Of a stretch of 36,656 bases of DNA, positions 2,689 through 18,748 are shown one piece after another; position 1 is the first letter of the stretch, and each line of letters begins with the position of its first letter. Position numbers and translations under genes: made by a program. The DNA is from a virus. Under the pieces are notes generated by a model. That model had not been told where the DNA came from. It saw only the letters and a list, made by a program, of their open reading frames with translations, and ran no database searches. Location of the stretch: positions 1 to 36,656 of IMG/VR virus record IMGVR_UViG_3300032820_000042; one strand, 5' to 3'.

Positions 2689-2859
2689 ATGTCTGTTATT
2701 AGACTCGACTCTTATTCTGAGTACGGACACAATGATCGAGGTGAATACCTTGAGCAATTGATGGACGAACTCGATACATCACGTGATAGATGTGATGAGT
2801 ATTGGAATGAAAGTCTACTCGAAAACTATCTACGTTCTTCATCTAATCTTGACTATTGA
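2689..2859 (+). CDS. Hypothetical acidic early protein, 56 aa
   Basis: The frame extends upstream into the tRNA gene, so the first ATG clear of it (MSVIRLDSYSEYGHNDRGEY) is chosen. The product is helical and acidic (LEQLMDELDTSRDRCDEYW). It ends 2 nt before the ardA start, suggesting translational coupling. No family recognised; it may be a partner or small relative of early host-takeover proteins. Confidence 0.5.
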   Translation: MSVIRLDSYSEYGHNDRGEYLEQLMDELDTSRDRCDEYWNESLLENYLRSSSNLDY

Positions 2860-2861
2860 TT

Positions 2862-3212
2862 ATGACTGTTACTTATTCTGACGTTATGTCACCTGAACTA
2901 GAGCAACTTCGTGATGCTATTGGTTCAACTGGTATGATTGATACCATGCCTGATGAGTTCTATCAAGACCTTATTGATTATGGTATTGAGACATCAGAAC
3001 AGTTTGAAGATGCCTATCAAGGTTCATATTCAAGCGGTGCTGAATTCTGTGAAACAATGGTCAACGATTGTGGTGATCTAGAACAGATCCCTAATTTCAT
3101 CACCAATCATATCAATTGGGATGACATGTGGGAATGTGAACTACGTCATGATTACTTCATGATAGATGGTAAACGACCTGGAGATAAACGCTTCTTCAGT
3201 AAATACTTTTGA
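2862..3212 (+). CDS. ardA: ArdA-type antirestriction protein
   Basis: ArdA proteins are acidic mimics of B-form DNA that occupy type I restriction-modification enzymes. The C-terminal half (residues about 48-110) shows the family hallmark: FEDAYQGSYSS, then EFCETMVNDCGDLEQIP, then an INWDDMW block and a DYF near the end. The protein is short (116 aa against roughly 165 for plasmid ArdA) and strongly acidic. An alternative TTG two codons upstream is less likely than this ATG. The early position matches the T7 strategy, in which the unrelated DNA mimic Ocr is the first early gene. Confidence 0.83.
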   Translation: MTVTYSDVMSPELEQLRDAIGSTGMIDTMPDEFYQDLIDYGIETSEQFEDAYQGSYSSGAEFCETMVNDCGDLEQIPNFITNHINWDDMWECELRHDYFMIDGKRPGDKRFFSKYF

Positions 3213-3292: not shown

Positions 3293-3583
3293 ATGAAACC
3301 CAAATCATTTAAACTATCTGATGAGACTATTACTCTAATCTCTACAGATCTTGAAGATATTAATGTCATTCCAATTCAAGAATACATTATTGATATCAAG
3401 AAACGAGTAGAGATTAACAACCACGAAGTAATCACACTCATCAGGGACTTGGAGTATGTTTACAACAAGGCTAAGCCTATTGTAACGCAGGGACTTGAGA
3501 TAGCAGTCAATGCTTACAACAAGATAGGTAAAGCTGTGGCTAAATCATATGACACAAAGGCTAAGACTGATGGTGTCAATTGA
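3293..3583 (+). CDS. Hypothetical protein, 96 aa
   Basis: Starts MKPKSFKLSDETITLISTDL. Predominantly helical and charged, soluble. It contains one CACACTCAT word and two CAGGGACTT words within its coding sequence. The 3' end overlaps the next tiny membrane gene by 14 nt. No family recognised. Confidence 0.6.
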   Translation: MKPKSFKLSDETITLISTDLEDINVIPIQEYIIDIKKRVEINNHEVITLIRDLEYVYNKAKPIVTQGLEIAVNAYNKIGKAVAKSYDTKAKTDGVN

Positions 3584-3656
3584 TTTAGTATTCATACTCT
3601 GTGTAATCATGTTCATCTATTGGATGATGTACATTCTACCTGAGAAACTAATGTGA
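3570..3656 (+). CDS. Tiny transmembrane peptide, 28 aa
   Basis: Starts inside the end of the 96-aa gene (ATGGTG). Nearly the whole product is one transmembrane helix (LVFILCVIMFIYWMMYIL), ending PEKLM with a positive residue. It is too short for most gene callers. It could act as a membrane effector or small holin-like peptide; nothing shows which. Confidence 0.5.
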   Translation: MVSIDLVFILCVIMFIYWMMYILPEKLM

Positions 3657-3662
3657 ACCATC

Positions 3663-3812
3663 ATGCAACAATCAACTATTCACAAAACATCTGATGGTAA
3701 ACGTAAAGACAAAGGACGAAAGAAACCTCAACAAGTGAGGCAAGCTAAGGCAAGAACTAAGGCCTTAATTAAGAAACTAAATCACACTCACACACCTCAG
3801 GGACTTGGCTGA
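3663..3812 (+). CDS. Small highly basic protein, 49 aa
   Basis: Rich in Lys, Arg and Gln (KRKDKGRKKPQQVRQAKART), so probably nucleic-acid binding or ribosome-associated. The last 30 nt include ATCACACTCA and TCAGGGACTTGG, the two early repeat words. The stop is directly followed by the ATG of the next gene. Confidence 0.5.
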   Translation: MQQSTIHKTSDGKRKDKGRKKPQQVRQAKARTKALIKKLNHTHTPQGLG

Positions 3813-3989
3813 ATGACTGTCAACTATCACATGAATCGTTACGTTGCTACATTAATGAATGGTCATGAGTTCTATGTTAGAGCTGATGATGATCATGAAG
3901 CAGCTGAGTCTGCAGCTACTATGGCTCAACGCTTAGGTGCTGAGCTAGCTGATGTTATGTTAGATCCTAATCAAGAACCACATGCCTAA
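3813..3989 (+). CDS. Hypothetical protein, 58 aa
   Basis: Starts MTVNYHMNRYVATLMNG, directly after the previous stop. One beta hairpin (YVATLMNGHEFYVRA) is followed by an alanine-rich helix (HEAAESAATMAQRLG), which resembles small beta-beta-alpha proteins found in marine cyanophages. It overlaps the next gene by 8 nt. Function unknown. Confidence 0.55.
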   Translation: MTVNYHMNRYVATLMNGHEFYVRADDDHEAAESAATMAQRLGAELADVMLDPNQEPHA

Positions 3990-4311
3990 GAAAAAGAAAC
4001 CTTACTACCCAAACAACTGGCAAGCATTCAAGGATGCACCAGATGAAATGTTCATGGATCATACATTTGATGAACTGATGGATTGGAAGGTAGCTGGTTG
4101 GGAGTTACCTTCATCAGTTTACTGTATCATTAGAACCATGGACGTAAACACAAAGAAAGTTAAAGAGTATCACTACAAGAGACCAGGTGCTGCCCGTAAC
4201 AAAGTTAAGAAACTAATGGATGAGGGTAGACATGAGTTTACTTTAGTTGATGCTGACTCTATCCACCACTTATCACCGAGGTACGATGATGACGAAACTG
4301 AAGAAGACTAA
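3982..4311 (+). CDS. Hypothetical conserved phage protein, 109 aa
   Basis: A Lys-rich start (MPKKKKPYYPNNW) and an acidic tail (RYDDDETEED) enclose a central alpha/beta segment with a strand SVYCIIRTMD, a basic KRPGAARNKVKKLMDEG helix and strand EFTLVDAD. Proteins of this build occur in many T7-like cyanophages just before the RNA polymerase, but no function is assigned. It overlaps the next ORF by 26 nt. Confidence 0.65.
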   Translation: MPKKKKPYYPNNWQAFKDAPDEMFMDHTFDELMDWKVAGWELPSSVYCIIRTMDVNTKKVKEYHYKRPGAARNKVKKLMDEGRHEFTLVDADSIHHLSPRYDDDETEED

Positions 4312-4447
4312 AGCATGGTATCGTGCATATGAGGAGTTAATCTTTCAACTTGAAGATCACACTCATAAAGACGAGATATTAGCACTATGTGAAGAACAAC
4401 TACGTGATGATCAGGAGGGCTATGCAACCAACAGCGTCACAGATTGA
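4286..4447 (+). CDS. Hypothetical protein, 53-54 aa, overlapping the RNA polymerase start
   Basis: Two adjacent ATGs (4286, 4289) begin MTKLKKTKAWYRAYEELI. The product is a charged, likely helical protein. It overlaps the previous gene at its start and the RNA polymerase gene by 26 nt at its end, so it may couple polymerase translation. It contains ATCACACTCATAAAG (4356-4370). Confidence 0.55.
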   Translation: MMTKLKKTKAWYRAYEELIFQLEDHTHKDEILALCEEQLRDDQEGYATNSVTD

Positions 4448-6827
4448 CGAACAGGTTAAGTTAGAACGTGATCAAATAGCGCAGGGACTTAAGAGACTAC
4501 ATGATGATACACGTAGGTCAGAGGAGCGTAGCTATGCTTCTGCTTGTGTGTATGGTATAGCATCTATTGATATGTTATTACCTTTAGTAGTTAAACGCAT
4601 AGAAGATACTAATAACCGTATCAAAGAGGGAAAGAATGGTGTAGCATTTAAAGAGATCCAGCAATACATATCTGGACTTGAGCCATTAGCTGCTGCTGCT
4701 ATTACCTGTAAACTTACCTTTGATAAGGTGTTTGGTTATAGAGACAAGAGTAACTTATTAGCTAATGTATTAGATAGTATAGGTCAAGCAGTTGAAGATG
4801 AATGTCACATGAGGCATTATGAAGAACATGCACCTGGCTTACTTAATGTATTGAAGAAGAACTATTGGCATAAAGCATGTGGTACACAACAGAAGATCAC
4901 AGTGATATCCACACTCATGAATCGCTGTGAGGTTAAGAAGTGGAAAGCATGGGGTAGAACTAATAGAATCAGGTTAGGTGGTTGGTTGCTGGACTGTTTA
5001 CTTGAGGCAAGTGGCTGGTTTGAGAAAGAATGTAGGAGAGAAGGTAAGAGGACAGTTAATTATGTTGTACCTACTGCTGAGTTCTTAAAGATCAAAGATG
5101 AAGTCATGGCTAATGCTGAATTATTCAGCCCTTTAACATGGCCTATGCTCATACCACCTAACAAATGGTCTAACCATGAACGTGGTGGCTACCTATTAAA
5201 TGAAGTGATGCGTGGTCATGAATTGATAAGGCATGGCGATCACTTACGTTTACAGGGAGAAACACCACTGGCTTTTCTCAACCATATACAAAAGGTTGCT
5301 TATACTCTCAATCCATTTATTGTGGATGTGGCTGAAACATTGCAGAAGAGAGGTATTAGTGTTGGAAAGTTTCTTCCTATAGTAGATCATCCATTACCTC
5401 CTAAACCAGTAGATATAGCAGACAATGAGGATAGTCGTATGGCTTACCGTAGAGCTGCTGCAGAGGTTAGGAATAAGAATGCACAAGAGTTTAAACGCTC
5501 GTGTAGAACTAGGATGACGATGGGGGCAGTTAGTAGATTTAAGGACGTAGATAGATTCTATATTCCTTGGTCGTTTGATTATAGAGGTAGAGCCTACCCA
5601 ATCCCTGCCTTCCTCACACCTCAGGATACAGACTTTGGAAAAAGTTTACTTAAGTTTGCAGATGATGCATTCTTAACTGATAGAACTGAGGAGTGGTTAG
5701 CATTTCAAGTAGCTACTACCTATGGTAAGGATAAAGATACTTGGAAGGACAGACAGAAGTGGGTTAAGAATAACCTCACACTCATCAAGAACGTTGCATT
5801 AGATCCTATAGGAAATAGACCTGAATGGGAGAATGCAGAGGAACCCTGGCAGTTCTTAGCAGCTTGTGATGAGTACTTTCATTGTATCTTAGTACGTGAT
5901 AGACCTCATACTTCATTAATGGTTGCAGTCGATGCTACTTGTAGTGGTCTACAAATACTAGCTGGATTAGCTAGGGATAAGAGTACTGCTAAGCTAGTCA
6001 ATGTATTACCTAGTGATGAACCACAAGATGCTTATGCTGTCGTAGCTAAAACTGCTAAACCTAACTGTCCTAAAGAGTATCAATACTTTATGGATAGAAA
6101 GGTAGTTAAACGTACTGTTATGACAGTCCCATATAATGCTAAACCTTTCTCTAATAGATCCTACATCAGGGACGCATTGAAGGAGAAAGGAATAGAAATA
6201 GATAAGGACAACTTATCTTTAATTGTCAAGGCAGTTAGAGGTGCTATGAACACAGTTGTTCCTGGCCCTATGGCTGTCATGAAATGGATAGAGACTGAGG
6301 TTGCTAAAGCTATAGCAAGGGGTCAACATGGTTGGGTTAAATATCCAACTAAAGAAGATCCAGATAGGAGACTATGGAAACCAATTGAGCAAGAGTTTGA
6401 ATGGGTTACACCTTCAGGGTTTGTAGTACGTCAAAAGATGATGAAAAAGGATTGGGAAATATTGGATCTTAAATTACTAGGTCGCTGTCAAATCAAGGTA
6501 GCGACTGATGATACAGATGAAGTAGATACTAATAGACATAAAGCTGCTACTGCACCTAATCTAATCCATAGTCTAGATGCTAGCCTACTCCACTTATCCA
6601 TCATTAAATTCAATGCGCCCATCGCCCTTATTCATGATAGCGTGTTGTCTCGTGCTACAGACATGCCTGAGTTATCCACACTCATCAGACAGACTTACAT
6701 GCAGCTTTTTGCTGACCACGATTATCTTACCGATTTTGCCAAACAGATCGGTGCTGAAACAAAACCCCCAATTATTGGAGACTTAGACGCGTCTTCAGTA
6801 ATTGATTCCGATTATTTTTTCTGTTAA
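4422..6827 (+). CDS. Single-subunit phage RNA polymerase (T7 gp1-like)
   Basis: Transcribes the middle and late phage genes from phage-specific promoters. The catalytic residues align with T7: Asp504 in AVDATCSGLQ (T7 D537), Lys563 and Tyr571 in KRTVMTVPYN (T7 K631 and Y639, same 8-residue spacing) and Asp739 in LIHDSVL (T7 D812). The C-terminus DSDYFFC corresponds to the T7 DFAFA end. It has 801 residues against 883 in T7. ATG 4422 is chosen because AGGAGG lies just upstream; a GTG 33 nt earlier lacks one. An HxAxAPNLIHSLDAS block stands where the specificity and fingers region is expected. Confidence 0.97.
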   Translation: MQPTASQIDEQVKLERDQIAQGLKRLHDDTRRSEERSYASACVYGIASIDMLLPLVVKRIEDTNNRIKEGKNGVAFKEIQQYISGLEPLAAAAITCKLTFDKVFGYRDKSNLLANVLDSIGQAVEDECHMRHYEEHAPGLLNVLKKNYWHKACGTQQKITVISTLMNRCEVKKWKAWGRTNRIRLGGWLLDCLLEASGWFEKECRREGKRTVNYVVPTAEFLKIKDEVMANAELFSPLTWPMLIPPNKWSNHERGGYLLNEVMRGHELIRHGDHLRLQGETPLAFLNHIQKVAYTLNPFIVDVAETLQKRGISVGKFLPIVDHPLPPKPVDIADNEDSRMAYRRAAAEVRNKNAQEFKRSCRTRMTMGAVSRFKDVDRFYIPWSFDYRGRAYPIPAFLTPQDTDFGKSLLKFADDAFLTDRTEEWLAFQVATTYGKDKDTWKDRQKWVKNNLTLIKNVALDPIGNRPEWENAEEPWQFLAACDEYFHCILVRDRPHTSLMVAVDATCSGLQILAGLARDKSTAKLVNVLPSDEPQDAYAVVAKTAKPNCPKEYQYFMDRKVVKRTVMTVPYNAKPFSNRSYIRDALKEKGIEIDKDNLSLIVKAVRGAMNTVVPGPMAVMKWIETEVAKAIARGQHGWVKYPTKEDPDRRLWKPIEQEFEWVTPSGFVVRQKMMKKDWEILDLKLLGRCQIKVATDDTDEVDTNRHKAATAPNLIHSLDASLLHLSIIKFNAPIALIHDSVLSRATDMPELSTLIRQTYMQLFADHDYLTDFAKQIGAETKPPIIGDLDASSVIDSDYFFC

Positions 6828-6830
6828 ACT

Positions 6831-7085
6831 ATGATGTATCCATCTTTATTTGATTCATTCTTTGCACCCACTAGGGTTATTGTTGTCTCTGAGGAGCGAC
6901 TGAAAGCCGCTGAACAATCAGCGAGAAGGGATCAACTACAAGCATTGAACAACCGTATCGATGAGCTAACTAAATATAGAGATAGTTTAGCTCAAGAGAT
7001 TAAAGCACTTGAACCTAAAGAGGTTAAGTACGAAACTATTGAACGTCCAACAGATGCCCTTCATCACGGTGGGGAGGCAGCCTAA
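6831..7085 (+). CDS. Coiled-coil protein, 84 aa
   Basis: Residues 20-62 form a long charged helix with heptad character (ERLKAAEQSARRDQLQALNN and ELTKYRDSLAQEIKAL). It lies 3 nt after the RNA polymerase stop and its own stop overlaps the start of the SSB gene. Its position matches the small genes 1.1-2 of T7, one of which (gp2) inhibits host RNA polymerase, but there is no visible similarity. Confidence 0.6.
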   Translation: MMYPSLFDSFFAPTRVIVVSEERLKAAEQSARRDQLQALNNRIDELTKYRDSLAQEIKALEPKEVKYETIERPTDALHHGGEAA

Positions 7086-7651
7086 TGGCACGTACTACAT
7101 ATGTAACTAAAGAGCCAGTAACACTTGAAGGATTTCAAGCAGTAATGGCACCAAGTAAATTCGGTTACTCTCTTTCTGCTGTTGTCGATCAAGATATGAT
7201 GGACAAATTAGAGGAAGAACGAAATGATTTTGAAGGTTGGTGGAAATCCAAACTGAAAAATCCTAAGCGTTCTGTTCTTAGGCCTGAGCCTTGGGAAGAA
7301 GTAGCTGAAGGTAAGTATAAAATTAAGTTCTCTTGGAATGAAGAGACTAAACCACCCGTTGTAGATACAGAGGGTACACCAGTAACAGACAAGAGGATCC
7401 CATTGTACTCTGGATCTACTGTTAAATTAGCATTCTATCAGAAACCTTATGTCCTAAGGGATGAGATGACCTATGGATCTTCATTGAAGTTAGTCGGTGT
7501 ACAGGTTGTGTCTATAAAAGGTACAGCTGGTGTTGATGCCGGAGATTTAGACGCTACTGAAGTAGCTGGACTATTTGGCACAACTAAGGGATTCAAAGCA
7601 GATGATCCAAATGTGATCCCTGCAGAAACAACGGATGACGACGACTTCTAA
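7085..7651 (+). CDS. Single-stranded DNA-binding protein (T7 gp2.5-like)
   Basis: Binds and protects ssDNA and stimulates primase-helicase and polymerase. The 188-aa protein has an OB-fold-like body (KLAFYQKPYVLRD, LKLVGVQVVSI) and ends in a very acidic tail closing with Phe (TTDDDDF), the hallmark of gp2.5 and bacterial SSB tails that contact partner proteins. Gene order between RNA polymerase and endonuclease I is as in T7. The family call rests on the tail, size and context. Confidence 0.85.
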   Translation: MARTTYVTKEPVTLEGFQAVMAPSKFGYSLSAVVDQDMMDKLEEERNDFEGWWKSKLKNPKRSVLRPEPWEEVAEGKYKIKFSWNEETKPPVVDTEGTPVTDKRIPLYSGSTVKLAFYQKPYVLRDEMTYGSSLKLVGVQVVSIKGTAGVDAGDLDATEVAGLFGTTKGFKADDPNVIPAETTDDDDF

Positions 7652-7655
7652 AAAG

Positions 7656-7757
7656 ATGGCTAAACTGTACACTAAAGCTGCTGCCTGTACTAAACGTAAG
7701 AAGGCACAGAAGTTAATAGCCAAAGCTGATAAACTTTACACCCATGACAAAGTATAG
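7656..7757 (+). CDS. Small basic protein, 33 aa
   Basis: Starts MAKLYTKAAACTKRKKAQKL, 4 nt after the SSB stop, and overlaps the start of endonuclease I by 14 nt. It is very rich in Lys and Ala. Composition and tight overlap support a real gene; function unknown. Confidence 0.45.
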   Translation: MAKLYTKAAACTKRKKAQKLIAKADKLYTHDKV

Positions 7758-8103
7758 GTCAGGATTAGAAGAGCAGGTAGCTGACTTGCTCTCCGGTCTT
7801 GGCATTGATTACGAATATGAAACAACCAAGATCTCATATGTCATTGAACATAACTACACACCTGACTTTGTTTTACCTAATAAACATGTCGTCTTAGAGT
7901 GTAAGGGATATTGGGACAGTAAGGACCGTCGTAAGATCAAGTCAGTATTAAAACAGAATCCTGACCTTGACTTACGGATGGTCTTTCAATCACCATACAA
8001 CCGAATAAGTAAAAAATCTAAAACTACATACGCACAATGGTGCGAAAAACATAATATACCATGGACATCATTCCATGACATTCCACTTGAATGGCTCATC
8101 TGA
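7744..8103 (+). CDS. Endonuclease I, Holliday-junction resolvase (T7 gp3-like)
   Basis: Cuts branched DNA and host DNA, feeding nucleotides to the phage. The catalytic set of the T7 endonuclease I family is visible: Glu9 or Glu10, Asp41 in YTPDFVLP, then Glu52 and Lys54 in LECKGYW (PD-(D/E)XK, equivalent to T7 E20, D55, E65, K67). The length of 119 aa is close to the 149 of T7. It overlaps the primase-helicase start by 29 nt. Confidence 0.94.
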   Translation: MTKYRSGLEEQVADLLSGLGIDYEYETTKISYVIEHNYTPDFVLPNKHVVLECKGYWDSKDRRKIKSVLKQNPDLDLRMVFQSPYNRISKKSKTTYAQWCEKHNIPWTSFHDIPLEWLI

Positions 8104-9664
8104 ATTCTTAAGACATGAGCCATGTACAGCATGTGGATCATCTGATGCACTAAGTGTGTACTCAGATGGTCACACTTACTGCTTTGTATGCCATACTCAC
8201 ACACAAGGAGATGGTAAAGTAAATCACACTCATCAAATGAAAACTGATGTCTACCTACAAGGATATGCAACCCCTCTTAAGCGAAGGGGTATTTCCGAGA
8301 AGACCTGTGAGTTCTACAAGATCTACAAAGACGGAGAACTTTTACGCTTCCATTATTTCACAGATGATGGCGTACTTCAAGGAGCGAAAGTAAAATCAAA
8401 AAAGAAAGTATTCACCTATGAAGGAATTTCCACTAAAACTTTATTTGGCCAGCATCTTTTCCCTAATAGTGGCCGTAGGATTGTTGTTACTGAGGGCGAG
8501 CTAGATGCAGCCTCATGTTATGAGGCGATGCCTAACTGGCCCATGGTCTCTCTACCGCACGGTGCTGCAGGGGCAAAAAAAGATATTCAGCACCAGATCC
8601 CCTTATTACAAGGCTACGAGGAGATTGTCCTGTTCTTCGACAGCGATGAGGCGGGCCGTCAAGCTGCGGAGGCAGCGGCAAGCGTCCTTCCACCTGGCAA
8701 GGTCAAGATCGCTCGTATGGAGTCATACAAGGACCCTTCAGATGCGTTACAGGCTGGTAAACCTGAACTCATTCGGGAAGCGATATGGAACGCTACACCC
8801 TTTCGTCCAGATGGTATTGTCGATGCGAAGACCCTGCTGGATGTAATCACTACACCAAACAAACCATGCGATTATGAGTACCCTTACACAGGATTACAGT
8901 TACGTTTGCACGGGATCAGACTTGGCGAGCTTGTTTCGATTACTGCAGGTACTGGAACGGGAAAATCTAGCTTCTGTAGAGAACTTTGTACTCACCTTCT
9001 CCAGGCCGGGGAACGGGTCGGTTACGTGGCGCTTGAGGAAAGTAATAGACGCACCGCCCTTGGACTAATGTCATCCGCCCTTGGTAAATCATTACACTTA
9101 GGAGAACATGACAGAACAGAACTCGAATCTGCCTACGAAGCAACAATTAATAGATGGAATCTATACCTATTTGATGGTTTCGGCAGCTTTGATCCTGATA
9201 TTATCTACAATCGAATTGAGTACTTGGCTACTGGCTTAGAAACTAAGATCATATTCCTTGATCACCTCTCCATACTTATGTCTGGATTAGATGGTGATGA
9301 ACGAAGGATGATCGATACAACTATGACTAAGTTACGATCTCTAGTAGAACGTACTGGTATAGCTATGTTTCTAGTATCACATTTAAGAAGGACGAATAAT
9401 GACAAGAACCATGAGGAAGGTGCCAGAGTCACTCTTGGGCAACTACGGGGAAGCGCAGCAATTGCACAGCTCTCTGACGCAGTTATTGGACTCGAACGTG
9501 ACCAACAACGCACAACTTCGGACAATTCAACTACAGTGCGAATCCTTAAGAATCGCTATAGCGGCGAAACTGGTAGAGCATGCGAACTGACTTACGACTT
9601 AAACACTTGCAGATTTACTGAACATGAAGTTGAGGAACAATTCAACCCCGCAACAGACTTCTAA
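8075..9664 (+). CDS. Bifunctional primase-helicase (T7 gp4-like)
   Basis: Unwinds DNA at the fork and synthesises RNA primers. The N-terminal zinc ribbon uses Cys17, Cys20, Cys36 and Cys39 (PCTACGSSD, YCFVC). The TOPRIM core has VVTEGELDAAS near residue 140 and FFDSDEAGR near residue 190. The C-terminal RecA-type helicase has Walker A GTGTGKSS near residue 292, IIFLDHLSIL (Walker B region) and LVSHLRR. Its 529 residues compare with 566 in T7. The start codon lies inside endonuclease I. Confidence 0.97.
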   Translation: MTFHLNGSSEFLRHEPCTACGSSDALSVYSDGHTYCFVCHTHTQGDGKVNHTHQMKTDVYLQGYATPLKRRGISEKTCEFYKIYKDGELLRFHYFTDDGVLQGAKVKSKKKVFTYEGISTKTLFGQHLFPNSGRRIVVTEGELDAASCYEAMPNWPMVSLPHGAAGAKKDIQHQIPLLQGYEEIVLFFDSDEAGRQAAEAAASVLPPGKVKIARMESYKDPSDALQAGKPELIREAIWNATPFRPDGIVDAKTLLDVITTPNKPCDYEYPYTGLQLRLHGIRLGELVSITAGTGTGKSSFCRELCTHLLQAGERVGYVALEESNRRTALGLMSSALGKSLHLGEHDRTELESAYEATINRWNLYLFDGFGSFDPDIIYNRIEYLATGLETKIIFLDHLSILMSGLDGDERRMIDTTMTKLRSLVERTGIAMFLVSHLRRTNNDKNHEEGARVTLGQLRGSAAIAQLSDAVIGLERDQQRTTSDNSTTVRILKNRYSGETGRACELTYDLNTCRFTEHEVEEQFNPATDF

Positions 9665-9782
9665 CTATGTACACCCATGGTATGAATACCTAGACAGATT
9701 AAACAAACCAAACCCACCAACAAAGGAGGCAGTAGAAAAAGCTAAATTCGTAGATAAGACGTATGTCTGGACAGGACAGTGA
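9624..9782 (+). CDS. Hypothetical protein, 52 aa, between helicase and polymerase
   Basis: It starts inside the 3' end of the primase-helicase gene (MKLRNNSTPQQTSNYVHPW) and its stop overlaps the GTG start of the polymerase exonuclease gene (GTGA), so it fills the 114-nt gap completely. The second half (NPPTKEAVEKAKFVDKTYVW) looks like a genuine soluble domain. No family recognised. It may couple polymerase translation to that of the helicase. Confidence 0.58.
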   Translation: MKLRNNSTPQQTSNYVHPWYEYLDRLNKPNPPTKEAVEKAKFVDKTYVWTGQ

Positions 9783-10309
9783 CACTTGTATTTGATTTAG
9801 AGGCTAACGGTTTACTACATGATGCTACCAAGATCCACTGTATTGCAATCTATGATTCTGAGACTAAGGAGACGACCAGTTATAACGATGAATGTCCTGG
9901 TAAAGGCATGTCGGACCCTGTGGTACGCGCAGTCCAGTTCCTTGAACAAGCTGATTATATCGTGGGCCATAATATTATTGCTTACGATCTCCCAGTTATT
10001 AGGAGGCTTTATCCCTTCTTCAATTTCACTGGTACTGTTGTCGATACTCTTATTCTATCTAGGTGCTATCATAACAACATTATAGATATTGATAAGAAGC
10101 ATCAATGGAATCATATGCCACTACAGTTATATGGCAGACACTCTCTTGAAGCCTATGGATACAGGTTAGGGGAGTATAAAGGAGAATTCTCAAAGACTAC
10201 TGACTGGAAAGAATGGAGTCAAGAGATGGAAGACTATTGTATCCAAGATGTTGTTGTTACAACTAAACTATGCGACCACTTTCACCCTTACCTGACTGGC
10301 TCACGTTAG
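9779..10309 (+). CDS. DNA polymerase, 3'-5' exonuclease part (T7 gp5 N-terminus)
   Basis: Proofreading domain of a family A polymerase carried on its own ORF. Motif Exo I is VFDLEANG (Asp6, Glu8), Exo II is GHNIIAYD and Exo III is YCIQDVVVT, matching T7 gp5 (EANA, HNGHKYD, YNVQDVVVT). HSLEAYGYRLGEYKGEF is close to T7. The start is GTG, overlapping the upstream stop. The ORF ends 40 nt into the polymerase ORF, which is in the -1 frame relative to it. It could be a separate subunit, a product joined by frameshifting, or the result of an indel error. Confidence 0.92.
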   Translation: MTLVFDLEANGLLHDATKIHCIAIYDSETKETTSYNDECPGKGMSDPVVRAVQFLEQADYIVGHNIIAYDLPVIRRLYPFFNFTGTVVDTLILSRCYHNNIIDIDKKHQWNHMPLQLYGRHSLEAYGYRLGEYKGEFSKTTDWKEWSQEMEDYCIQDVVVTTKLCDHFHPYLTGSR

Positions 10310-11541
10310 AGCATCAGGTAGCCCACATACTTACACAACAGGAGATCTATGGATGGTACTTTGATGAACGCTCTGCATGGGAACTTGAACAAACTCTCAG
10401 AGGAGAATTGGAAGAAACTGTTAAACTACTACGAAACAAATTCGCTTTCGTTGCAGGATCGTTGTTCACTCCTAAACGAGATAACAGGACACAAGGTTAC
10501 GTCAATGGAGCGGAGTTTCAAAGACTAAAAGAATTAAACCCTACATCACGAGATCACATAGCATGGATTCTGCAAACACATTGTGGCTGGACGCCGTCAT
10601 TAACGACCTCTACGGGGAAGCCGGTTATAGACGAAGTGATCCTGAAGGAGATCGGGACGGATATAGCGATGATGTTCTTCAAATGCTTGGACTTGACAAA
10701 GAAGCTAGGGATGCTTTCCGAAGGGAACAACGCCTGGCAGAAGCTTGTTACGAAGTCTAGAATCCATCACCACTGTTCAGTCGCAACAAATACGCACAGA
10801 TGTGCACACCGTAATCCAAACTTAGCACAAGTTCCATCCGATGAAAGATTCAGAAAACTATTCACGGCCACACCCACTAAAGTTATGGTGGGTGCAGACC
10901 TTAGTGGTATCGAGCTTCGTATGCTTGCCCATTATATACATAGGTATGATGGAGGCCGCTACGGTGATATTCTACTCAACGGAGACATCCACCAAGTCAA
11001 TGCCGACAAGATAGGTATATCACGCCGTCTTGTCAAAACTGTAACTTATGCGTTCCTATATGGAGCAGGAGACATTAAAATTGGGCTATCATACTCACAA
11101 TGCCTTTCCAAAGACAAGGCACGAAAAAAGGGTAAGGAAATTCGTAAGGCTTTTATTGACGCCATACCGGGACTTAAAAGCTTATTGGACGCTATCAAGA
11201 ATGCGTCGAGGCGTGGTTTTGTCAAGGCGATCGATGGTCGAAAGATCTTAGTCGATAGCCAACACAAGGCTTTAAACTATTTACTGCAGTCATCAGCTGG
11301 TATAATTGCTAAGAGATGGATGGTAATTGCTAATGAAGCTATTCACACTCATCCATACTTTGAAGCTAATCAGCTAGCATTTGTACATGATGAGCTGCAG
11401 TTTGAGACACCACCTAAATATGAGCAAGACATCAGATTCATCCTTGAGTACACAGCAGCTAGGGCTGGTGAGTATTACGGGACAAGAATCCCTATTGCAG
11501 CAGAGTCTAAGTCAGGAAATACTTGGGCAGACGTGCACTAA
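10270..11541 (+). CDS. DNA polymerase, polymerase part (T7 gp5 C-terminus)
   Basis: Family A palm and fingers: motif A VGADLSGIELRMLAHY (T7 D475 region), motif B RRLVKTVTYAFLYGAG with Lys and Tyr equivalent to T7 K522 and Y526, motif C FVHDELQ (T7 D654). It starts at ATG 10270, two codons after a TAA in its frame and without a Shine-Dalgarno sequence. Joined to the upstream exonuclease ORF it would make about 587 residues. The thumb stretch between LLRNKF and NPTSRDHI is about 35 residues, much shorter than the thioredoxin-binding loop region of T7. Confidence 0.95.
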   Translation: MRPLSPLPDWLTLEHQVAHILTQQEIYGWYFDERSAWELEQTLRGELEETVKLLRNKFAFVAGSLFTPKRDNRTQGYVNGAEFQRLKELNPTSRDHIAWILQTHCGWTPSLTTSTGKPVIDEVILKEIGTDIAMMFFKCLDLTKKLGMLSEGNNAWQKLVTKSRIHHHCSVATNTHRCAHRNPNLAQVPSDERFRKLFTATPTKVMVGADLSGIELRMLAHYIHRYDGGRYGDILLNGDIHQVNADKIGISRRLVKTVTYAFLYGAGDIKIGLSYSQCLSKDKARKKGKEIRKAFIDAIPGLKSLLDAIKNASRRGFVKAIDGRKILVDSQHKALNYLLQSSAGIIAKRWMVIANEAIHTHPYFEANQLAFVHDELQFETPPKYEQDIRFILEYTAARAGEYYGTRIPIAAESKSGNTWADVH

Positions 11542-11863
11542 ATACTGTTCAAGTTGTAAGCAATGGTTACCTTTAGAAGCTTTCTGCAATTCAAGGTGCA
11601 GGAAAGATCGTAAACATCCTGTTTGTAAGGAATGTGAGAATGCTAGAAAAAGGTATGCAAGGTTATTACATAAGAATGCCCCACCAAAACCATTACACTG
11701 CGACTGCTGTGGATTAAAGAAAACTTTACATTTAGACCATAACCATGAAACTGGTAGATTTAGAGGATGGTTATGTAAAGATTGTAATATTGGAATAGGT
11801 AAATTAGGGGATAATTTATTTGGATTAAAAAAAGCAATGAGGTACCTTGAAATTACTAATTGA
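11420..11863 (+). CDS. Endonuclease VII-like HNH nuclease (start uncertain)
   Basis: Recombination endonuclease VII family: CSSC and CKEC pairs, then CDCCG, LHLDHNHETGRFRGWLC with the D-H-N-H active site, CKDC and a closing NLFGLKKAMRYLE helix. Such enzymes resolve branched DNA or act as free-standing homing nucleases. The conserved part begins around base 11545, after the polymerase stop; in-frame starts lie inside the polymerase gene (ATG 11381, ATG 11420, GTG 11468). ATG 11420 is a compromise. The 3' end overlaps the exonuclease gene by 17 nt. Confidence 0.85.
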   Translation: MSKTSDSSLSTQQLGLVSITGQESLLQQSLSQEILGQTCTKYCSSCKQWLPLEAFCNSRCRKDRKHPVCKECENARKRYARLLHKNAPPKPLHCDCCGLKKTLHLDHNHETGRFRGWLCKDCNIGIGKLGDNLFGLKKAMRYLEITN

Positions 11864-12614
11864 TGCGGACTTCATCGTTTATAAATCCTGTGCTGCTGCT
11901 GAAACTGAGATAGACTTTGGTGATGATGTAATCATTGTTACATCTAAATTCACTGAAGCCTATAATAAAGTTAAACGTGAACTAAAGAAAGTTCATTCTG
12001 CAATATGGGATTCTGATGAGATGATCCTATTCTTTAGTGATTCAACAAACTTCAGAAAAGAGATTCAAGCAGACTACAAGGGACACCGTAATCGAAAGAA
12101 ACCTTGTGGTTATAAACGTGTGATAAACGCACTAAAAGATGATTATGAAGTCATCATCATGCCCACCTTAGAAGCTGATGATGCTATGGGTATTTATGCC
12201 ACAAAAAATCCTGGCAATATGATATGCAGTCCTGATAAGGATATGCGACAGATACCAGGAAAACTATATGATATGGAGACAATCACACTCATAAGTGAAA
12301 CAACCGGACCTAAATGGCATCTTATACAAACACTGGCTGGCGATCAAACTGATGGTTATAGTGGTGTTAATGGAATTGGAATCAAGAGGGCTGAAGCTTT
12401 ATTCAAAGAGAAAGGATACTCCTGGAAAACAGTAAAGGATGCTTTCATTGAAAAAGATTCAGACGAAGAAACCGCCCTAATAAATGCTAGATTAGCAAAG
12501 ATCTTAACTAAGGATGACTATGACTTCAAAAACAACAAACCAATCCCCTGGACTCCCGCCGCCGATTACAAAATTGACGATGGAACAGGATCTGAGGATG
12601 AGACAAACACATGA
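11847..12614 (+). CDS. 5'-3' exonuclease (T7 gp6-like)
   Basis: FEN/PIN-type exonuclease that removes RNA primers and degrades host DNA. The acidic metal ligands are visible in LLIDADFIVY (Asp6, Asp8), LEADDAMG, SPDKDMRQIPG and LAGDQTDGY, followed by a helix-hairpin-helix GVNGIGIKRAEAL. It starts with TTG, preceded by GAGG four bases upstream, and overlaps the endonuclease VII-like gene. The 255 residues compare with 300 in T7. Confidence 0.9.
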   Translation: MKLLIDADFIVYKSCAAAETEIDFGDDVIIVTSKFTEAYNKVKRELKKVHSAIWDSDEMILFFSDSTNFRKEIQADYKGHRNRKKPCGYKRVINALKDDYEVIIMPTLEADDAMGIYATKNPGNMICSPDKDMRQIPGKLYDMETITLISETTGPKWHLIQTLAGDQTDGYSGVNGIGIKRAEALFKEKGYSWKTVKDAFIEKDSDEETALINARLAKILTKDDYDFKNNKPIPWTPAADYKIDDGTGSEDETNT

Positions 12615-17188: not shown

Positions 17189-18748
17189 ATGACAGCAAAA
17201 TCAAGGTATGATGATTTAGTAAGTGACCGGAACCAGTTTCTAGATTCAGCAGAGGAAGCGTCAAGATTAACACTTCCTTACTTGATAAGACAGGACGATG
17301 ATCAAAGAGGTAAGAGAACACTATCTACACCTTGGCAAAGCGTTGGTTCTAAAGGGGTTGTAACCCTAGCATCTAAATTGATGTTAGCTCTTCTTCCTCC
17401 ACAGACCAGTTTCTTTAAACTGCAAGTAGATGATTCTAACTTAGGTCAACTGCCACCAGGCTTTAGATCTGAGATGGACCTAGCATTTGCAAAGATTGAA
17501 CGAACCATTATGGATTCAATTGCTGCATCTGATGATCGTGTCGTCGTACACCAAGCATTAAAACACTTAGTTGTTGCTGGTAATGTACTAGTCTTTATGG
17601 GTAAGGAAGGGTTGAAATTATTTCCGCTTAACCGCTATGCTGTAGAGCGAGATGGTAATGGTAATGTACTTGAAATTATCACCAAGGAAAAAATTGCCAA
17701 AAAATTATTGGGAGATTATAAAGACATTCAATCGCAGCCCAACTCACCAGGGGCGGATCACTACGGTGATAAAGATGAGTGTGATGTTTATACCCACATA
17801 AAAAGAGAAAACAATAGGATGGTCTGGCACCAAGAGGTGTTTGATAAGATCATCCCTAACAGTAGAAGTAAAGCTCCCTTAGATGCTAGTCCATGGATTC
17901 CACTAAGGTTTAATACTGTCGATGGTGAAGCCTACGGGCGGGGCCGTTGTGAAGAGTTTATCGGAGATCTCAAGTCACTTGAAGCACTCTCTCAGGCCCT
18001 CGTAGAAGGCTCTGCAGCAGCTGCTAAAGTAGTCTTTGTAGTATCACCATCAAGCACCACTAAACCAGCTACTCTAGCGTCTGCTGGGAACGGTGCAATC
18101 GTTCAGGGAAGACCTGATGATATCGGTGTTGTTCAAGTTGGTAAGACAGCTGACTTTAGAACAGCATATGAAATGGTTCAACAACTAGAACGTAGGTTGA
18201 GTGAAGCATTCCTAATCCTTTCTGTTAGACAGTCGGAACGCACGACTGCTGAAGAAGTAAGGATGACACAGATGGAACTAGAGCAACAACTTGGTGGGTT
18301 GTTTAGTCTACTTACTGTTGACTTTCTAGTACCTTATCTAAACCGTAAGCTTTCAGTCTTTCAAAAGTCTGGTAAGATCCCTAGGATACCTAAGAACACA
18401 GTTAAACCTACTATTGTAGCAGGTGTTAATGCCTTAGGTCGTGGTCAGGACCGTGAGAGTCTTGGTCAATTCCTCACTACCATTGCACAAACAATGGGAC
18501 CAGAAGCTATCGGTCAATTTATCAATGCAGAAGAAGTTGTCAAACGTCTAGCTGCTGCACAAGGTATCGATGTACTTAACCTAGTTAAGACTATGCAAGA
18601 GGTACAAGGTGAGCAACAGCAACAGATGGAACAACAGATGGCTATGACTGCACAAGAACAAGCACCAGCGATGGCTGCTGTTGAACAAAAACAACAAGAG
18701 ATGATGCTAAATGCAGAAAATGACGCCAAGCAAGCCCCAGCGGGCTAA
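17189..18748 (+). CDS. Portal (head-tail connector, T7 gp8-like)
   Basis: Forms the dodecameric ring through which DNA is packaged and ejected. Seen: SVGSKGVVTLASKLMLALLPP near residue 55, VAGNVLVFMGKEGLKLFPLN near residue 128, GEAYGRGRCEEFIGDLKSLE near residue 250 and SERTTAEEVRMTQMELEQ near residue 352, all typical of T7-type portals. The 519 residues compare with 536 in T7. The tail is Gln-rich and probably flexible. Confidence 0.95.
   Translation: MTAKSRYDDLVSDRNQFLDSAEEASRLTLPYLIRQDDDQRGKRTLSTPWQSVGSKGVVTLASKLMLALLPPQTSFFKLQVDDSNLGQLPPGFRSEMDLAFAKIERTIMDSIAASDDRVVVHQALKHLVVAGNVLVFMGKEGLKLFPLNRYAVERDGNGNVLEIITKEKIAKKLLGDYKDIQSQPNSPGADHYGDKDECDVYTHIKRENNRMVWHQEVFDKIIPNSRSKAPLDASPWIPLRFNTVDGEAYGRGRCEEFIGDLKSLEALSQALVEGSAAAAKVVFVVSPSSTTKPATLASAGNGAIVQGRPDDIGVVQVGKTADFRTAYEMVQQLERRLSEAFLILSVRQSERTTAEEVRMTQMELEQQLGGLFSLLTVDFLVPYLNRKLSVFQKSGKIPRIPKNTVKPTIVAGVNALGRGQDRESLGQFLTTIAQTMGPEAIGQFINAEEVVKRLAAAQGIDVLNLVKTMQEVQGEQQQQMEQQMAMTAQEQAPAMAAVEQKQQEMMLNAENDAKQAPAG

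Follow-up and report, generated by a model that had tools for sequence, protein, structure and literature searches.

A strand-restricted word that switches at one base in cyanopodovirus genomes: a proposed site of sequence-specific nicking

What is the role of a nine-base word that recurs eight times on one strand of a cyanopodovirus genome, through its replication genes? The word, CACACTCAT, was found in IMG/VR virus record IMGVR_UViG_3300032820_000042, analysed here over its full 36,656 bases (the window), a cyanopodovirus whose RNA polymerase is closest to those of the T7-like phages of Synechococcus and Prochlorococcus (S-RIP1, 68%). We propose, at a probability of about 75%, that it is the recognition site of a sequence-specific top-strand nicking system of the phage. 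The proposal builds on the restriction of the word to one strand, the use of mostly one word type per genome, a primase residue that follows the word, and metagenomic contigs that begin at the predicted cut.

A word set by lineage and confined to the sense strand

In the window, exact copies on the + strand lie at 3433..3441 (site 1, CACA^CTCAT, with the predicted cut after base 4), at 4358..4366 just 5' of the RNA polymerase start codon (site 2), at 4910..4918, 5777..5785 and 6677..6685 within the RNA polymerase gene (sites 3, 4 and 5), at 8225..8233 in codons 51-53 (H-T-H) of the primase-helicase gene (site 6), at 11344..11352 within the DNA polymerase gene (site 7) and at 12284..12292 within the 5'-3' exonuclease gene (site 8), exactly where a sequence-only reading of this DNA had placed them. 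That reading erred in seeing none elsewhere: the minus strand has a ninth exact copy at 17775..17783, in the portal gene, probably by chance (1 reverse copy against 2.6 expected in 22 sequences). In addition, the 8-mer core occurs on the + strand at 3783..3791, as CACACTCAC, and is a probable extra site (CACA^CTCAC), with the last base C that is also seen at several contig starts. The position of site 4 carries CACANTCA in 54 of 223 polymerase genes, and several contigs begin there. The codon frame had been said to differ between copies; there is indeed more than one frame, but just two, ACA-CTC-AT (TLI/TLM) in five copies and CAC-ACT-CAT (HTH) in three. In 100 dinucleotide shuffles of the window the mean was 0.63 copies for both strands together, with a maximum of 5, and nine were never reached. 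In 2000 codon-preserving shuffles CACACTCAT itself never exceeded four copies, but some 9-mer reached at least eight in 95, so that the window alone gives only about p=0.05 for a word chosen post hoc. The repeat is nevertheless certainly real, a certainty that comes from sequence comparison with relatives.

The window and 49 IMG/VR relatives together have 98 forward copies of CACACTCAT and a single reverse one, the window's own. Other lineages carry CACAATCAT instead (32 forward, 0 reverse) and further ones CACATTCA or TCACAGTC, the fifth base of the word being set by lineage: CACA[C/A/T/G]TCA. The search through related cyanopodoviruses, which the sequence-only reading had suggested as a check, thus finds the word again, almost wholly on the sense strand. 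When 22 complete and partial sequences were each scored with their own word, 142 forward copies and 1 reverse copy were counted against 2.7 and 2.6 expected; because the words were chosen from these same sequences, the forward excess is partly selected, the strand ratio less so. A short fixed word on one strand only, which is also a property of the mapped nicks of phage tf (discussed below), is therefore found in these 22 sequences. Over a larger set of 260 contigs the forward and reverse counts are 341 and 10 for CACACTCA, 293 and 49 for CACATTCA, 175 and 21 for CACAATCA and 45 and 11 for CACAGTCA, the strand ratio being lower because word types are mixed. Syn5 has a word of its own, CACCATCA (21 forward, 0 reverse), as does NATL1A-7 (CACAATCG; 9 and 0), and another cyanopodovirus group uses CGATACGA, CGTTACGA or CGGTACGA. 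The words enriched in cyanopodoviruses are CACANTCA, CACCATCA and CGNTACGA, and not the TACTRTGMC family of tf. A marine metagenome-assembled contig with 35% polymerase identity (L402) has seven sense-strand copies of ATCTCTCA, which may represent another word family.

Most sites fall in the early/replication third: of 103 sites in 11 genomes that are complete or nearly so, with records treated as circular, 91 lie between -6 and +9 kb relative to the polymerase start, at a density 15.6x that of the rest. Several cyanophage copies stand just 5' of start codons. In the flanks of 77 distinct sites, no single base accounts for 65% or more at any position, and there is no strong conservation beyond about 10 bp. 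Near-cognate words show a forward excess (102 against 77 expected) and a reverse deficit (51 against 74) in the 22 sequences, which is only suggestive. A separate sequence, CAAGGACG, occurs 417 times forward and 6 times in reverse in the 260 contigs, often between a CACATTCA word and a start codon (e.g. in the early leaders of S-RIP1), and looks like a conserved ribosome-binding leader of early genes.

The choice of the variable base is consistent along a genome. Of 41 sequences typable both in the part that ends with the polymerase gene and in the following 12 kb, 39 have the same base in the two parts. Codons 51-53 of the primase gene carry CACANTCA in 248 of 282 genes, and the base found there can be compared with the type of the genome as given by its other sites. 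Of 90 genomes typable in this way, 8 have no word at the primase site, 5 of these belonging to the CGNTACGA group; among the 82 typed genomes with a word there, the base matches the genome type in 80. The encoded residue 52 follows: threonine in 26 of 34 C-type genomes, asparagine in 7 of 9 A-type, isoleucine in 37 of 38 T-type and serine in 4 of 4 G-type. Four different amino acids at one residue are beyond what codon usage explains, which upholds the earlier claim that the word is a DNA signal, one presumably read by a single factor in each genome.

Contigs that begin within the word

That many metagenomic contigs end at the word gave rise to the idea that the DNA is interrupted there. Only true contig ends were counted, 238 left and 217 right ends in a first set of 260 contigs. 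Forty-one of the left ends (40 distinct) begin exactly with NTCA, the second half of the word, where 4.6 are expected (p=4e-26), and in homologues that span the break CACA stands directly 5' of it in 29 of 35 cases, compared with 4 of 165 at other contig starts. With homologues, starts can also be placed to the base: 25 of 199 coincide with the predicted one and no other base receives more than 3, with 9 further starts located 8-12 nt 3' of the predicted cut. The break therefore lies at a fixed base within the word, as in nicks of the tf type. The reserve suggestion of the sequence-only reading, a replication or processing signal, is supported. The starts at CACA^NTCA are seen again in new contigs from a further scan, which is independent of the origin of the idea: 7 of 60 left ends begin in this way against 1.2 expected (p=2e-4), with CACA upstream in 6 of the 7 word starts and in 1 of 50 others.

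The right ends of the first set behave differently. Here, 22 of 217 stop no more than 40 nt past CACANTCA (3.5 expected, p=3e-11), while left ends are found up to 40 nt before it in 8 of 238 cases (p=0.03, against 3.7 expected). For the word in reverse orientation one right end was counted, against 0.2 expected. Fifteen shuffled control words stayed near expectation; the top right-end count was 3 where 0.65 were expected, for CACACTAN, which is close to the word. When the cut was located in the best homologues of 210 right ends, it fell within the contig in 22 cases, 1-40 nt from the end, and outside it in 6, by 0-39 nt. In a mirror test of right ends 3 lay at the mirrored offset and the largest number, 11, at another offset. 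Left-hand pieces, where seen, overrun the cut by 8-50 nt, whereas right-hand pieces start exactly at it.

Long contigs add detail. The ends of seven were read, picked partly because some start at the word. The most informative, L322 (45,810 bp), starts with TTCACCACGGACGCAG and ends with CACA followed by the same 16 bases, so that its ends overlap by 16 nt: it is a complete genome opened at the word and running through the genome-end junction. In L193 (40,800 bp) the start coincides with the polymerase-gene site and the end lies 23 nt beyond a further site. The word stands only at the start in L218 and at a distance of 14 and 54 nt from one end in L152 and L186, respectively; L357 and L363 show nothing of the kind. 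The leader-like CAAGGACG is also in excess at contig starts (13 of 238, 1.9 expected). Five of these 13 contigs start with the TTCA... of a cut word directly before CAAGGACG, and for 3 others a start at NTCA or at ATCA-like bases is only partial (L027, L251); the excess is explained by the cut word in part only.

Nicking weighed against other explanations

Site-specific interruptions of one strand, which are poorly understood, are known so far from a few phage groups only. The closest precedent is phage tf, in which 14 nicks have been mapped, all on the top strand at TACT^RTGMC (PMC3517423). A related phage, Rembedalsseter, has 13 such breaks by nanopore sequencing, and the motif is common to 60 related phages (PMC11780129). 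These tf/LUZ24-like words (TACT^RTGMC / WACTRTGAC) share with the cyanopodovirus word a length of 9 bp without a palindrome, some 8-14 copies on one strand, crowding toward the left end, a cut between bases 4 and 5, a base 5 that varies between relatives, and some sites at gene starts (PMC3517423, PMC11780129). In the tf sequence we count this word 14 times forward and never in reverse, with 10 of the 14 copies in the first 16 kb; three of the 14 nicks (at 2102, 5267 and 20794 in tf, L387) directly precede an annotated first codon, as do several cyanophage sites. The two systems differ in the word itself, in the evidence (mapped nicks in tf, contig ends in cyanopodoviruses) and in the phage, as tf is not T7-like and has no annotated phage RNA polymerase. 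The phiKMV-like nicks (CGACxxxxxCCTA^CTCCGG; PMC3517423) are likewise on one strand and belong to the T7-like (Autographiviridae) group, with a longer, rarer and unrelated word (CCTACTCCGG occurs 3 times on the + strand of phiKMV and never in reverse), and for a KP34-like phage a nick role has been suggested for one conserved motif (PMC4411677). T5 DNA also has site-specific one-strand interruptions when packaged (R^GCGCRGG; PMC3517423), in an unrelated phage and at an unrelated word. The freshwater cyanophage Pf-WMP3 has a nicking homing endonuclease (PMC3428280), which is a separate case. The enrichment scan used here ranks the words of tf and LUZ24 at the top, and in T7 the promoter; it missed the three phiKMV sites, which are too rare.

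In the proposed model, the sense (+) strand would be cut between bases 4 and 5, CACA^NTCAY, at some 4-12 positions per genome (21 for the Syn5 word) concentrated in the early/replication third, with N fixed by lineage (C in the window). The break would be single-stranded, present in phage DNA and made by a phage nickase, acting probably late, before or during packaging, and a ligase would reseal it after entry, as suggested by the phiKMV-like phikF77, for which nicks are reported to be sealed early and remade late (PMC3517423, discussion). A nick could yield a sharp right-hand start and a ragged left-hand overrun, the latter seen in the first contig set only, if the intact strand shears nearby and the ends are then filled.

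Several points weigh against nicking. A sharp contig start shows a break and not that it is single-stranded, and the asymmetry of the contig ends is only suggestive; the right-end excess is absent in the new contigs (0 of 51, 0.7 expected). Among the 30 starts on contigs typed by their majority word, the first base matches the type in 24 and differs in 6, and the start signal is also seen in contigs with at most one internal word (8 of 61). This signal is spread over some 50 sample numbers and is uneven between sample-number groups, with 15 of 35 in two groups, 4 of 66 in two others and 22 of 137 in the rest. Some genomes have weak or mixed words (e.g. S-RIP2, S28-C3, S-TIP37, S-SRP01 and P-SSP10). 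For a metagenomic positive control, relatives of tf and phiKMV gave only isolate-type records (3 and 7 loci); of 17 loci in GTDB contigs 6 were inspected, none of them decisive. Finally, none of the seven replication and transcription proteins examined could be identified as the nickase, and the contig libraries may be of DNA or of RNA, the sample numbers having given no hit in papers.

This last point bears on RNA processing, in which a sequence-specific ribonuclease would cut mRNA at CACA^NUCA and the contigs starting there would come from metatranscriptomes. The sense-strand location of the word in the genomes compared and the several copies shortly upstream of start codons fit such a model, which we nonetheless consider unlikely. 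L322 is a full 45.8-kb genome opened at the word and L193 extends over 40.8 kb; we know of no transcript that spans the end junction of a linear genome as L322 does. Moreover, right ends in the first set overrun the word instead of stopping at it, and the analogous tf word is a mapped DNA nick that is also found inside opposite-strand genes. A nuclease of phage or host origin that cuts both strands at the word, whether in cells or in decaying particles, would account for a fixed base at contig starts. Such double-strand cleavage is improbable on other grounds: a fixed double cut would not leave left-hand pieces that run 8-50 nt past an otherwise exact right-hand start, most copies are read through (the 260 contigs contain 854 forward CACANTCA copies), and a word causing double cuts is expected to be lost.

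A promoter for the phage RNA polymerase was the leading idea of the sequence-only reading, drawn from a superficial likeness of the word to the CACACTATAG promoters of other phages. The word type also appeared tied to polymerase identity. This link is largely gone when typing uses only sites downstream of the polymerase gene: nearest-neighbour agreement is then 44 of 61 for RNA polymerase, compared with 45 for SSB, 41 for Endonuclease I and 43 for the primase, and RNA polymerase as the recogniser of the word was set aside, the apparent tie being judged mostly linkage. A different element holds the promoter place. The promoter of Syn5 RNA polymerase, ATTGGGCACCCGTAA, has been defined biochemically, and its authors state that only two exist (PMC3950665); we located both copies in the Syn5 sequence, one of them inside the polymerase gene. 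It shares the phage group and this location with the word, and is distinct from it in having two copies only and a longer, different sequence. For 24 records of 33 kb or more, the nine longest exact repeats on the same strand were listed; in 16 records they include one of 16-26 bp with a copy 844-857 nt past the start of the polymerase gene. The second copy, in the records as laid out, is downstream in 7 of them, at a distance of 37.8-41.2 kb, and upstream in the other 9, at 3.7-6.6 kb. This repeat is predicted to generalise the Syn5 promoter to 16 genomes; mostly present in two copies, it often ends in TATACAGGG, and its upstream half varies by lineage. In the window, the position homologous to that of the Syn5 promoter is 5241..5260 on the + strand, a predicted phage RNA polymerase promoter inside the polymerase gene and separate from the word, with its second copy not among the repeats listed for this incomplete record. 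For the word itself, neither a cognate-polymerase element (judged by comparison) nor the extended conservation over 15-23 bp of T7-type promoters was found, and the annotated products of phage tf, in which a comparable word is limited to one strand, include no RNA polymerase. We consider the promoter explanation very unlikely. Chance or codon usage, for which the 95 shuffles with some 9-mer at eight copies could be cited, has a negligible probability in view of the recurrence in relatives, the strand ratio, the two codon frames, the four amino acids at one residue and the contig starts.

Candidate nickases and the meaning of a switching word

Searches with phmmer (1e-3) found a primase-helicase, two exonucleases, a DNA polymerase and Endonuclease I to be common to tf and all 10 cyanopodoviruses tested. 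Endonuclease I (PF05367 family match; 7744..8103 on the + strand of the window) is the only dedicated endonuclease among them and a weak candidate for the nickase: it is also present in T7, for which the scan puts the T7 promoter on top, and tracking of the variable base by the residues of the enzyme is no stronger than with permuted labels (best 0.30, ten-best mean 0.26, permutation maximum 0.25). The sole residue that tracks the variable base strongly is primase residue 52 (0.90), that is, the site itself. Endonuclease VII (HNH; window 11381-11863) was set aside, as there is no such reading frame between the DNA polymerase and exonuclease genes of L018, although the word family of L018 differs and the enzyme may still be a candidate in the CACANTCA lineages. 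In T5, the nicking genes sciA and sciB have been mapped to the late region (PMC3517423). Elsewhere in the window, TCACACTATCGTTATA is present in two exact copies (1365-1380 and 1485-1500) in the intergenic region 5' of the early genes, and a small early protein at 2856-3209 has a match to ArdA (antirestriction; E 3.5e-6, just above the Pfam cut-off).

Site-specific nicks in phages are already known; a word that switches at one base, and its effect on a primase residue, appear to be new, and the open-access literature searched yielded no report of such nicks in cyanopodoviruses or of the word. Beyond nicking as such, we consider evenly balanced the idea of a nicking code in the genomes of marine cyanopodoviruses, in which the CACA^NTCAY nickase would have switched repeatedly at one base, in some lineages to CGNTACGAC or CACCATCAC, the sites, including the one in the primase gene, would have been replaced in concert, and the system would act in delivery or packaging. 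This last role is suggested since the nicks would be crowded in the segment presumed to enter first. More speculatively, breaks in the non-template strand only, in a segment presumed to be the first to enter and to be transcribed, might ease packaging or release and leave the template strand whole.

For some 50 years nicks have been known in phage genomes, and no function has been assigned to them (PMC11780129). If the proposal is true, base-resolved nicks would exist in phages that are widespread in the ocean and include cultured members as well as hundreds of environmental relatives, making the question of function testable by comparison, and the concerted switch of a base would allow the nickase to be sought by co-variation. 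Contig ends at fixed words would be a way to find nicked viruses in existing metagenomes and, at the same time, a warning that assemblies of such viruses can break at biological sites.

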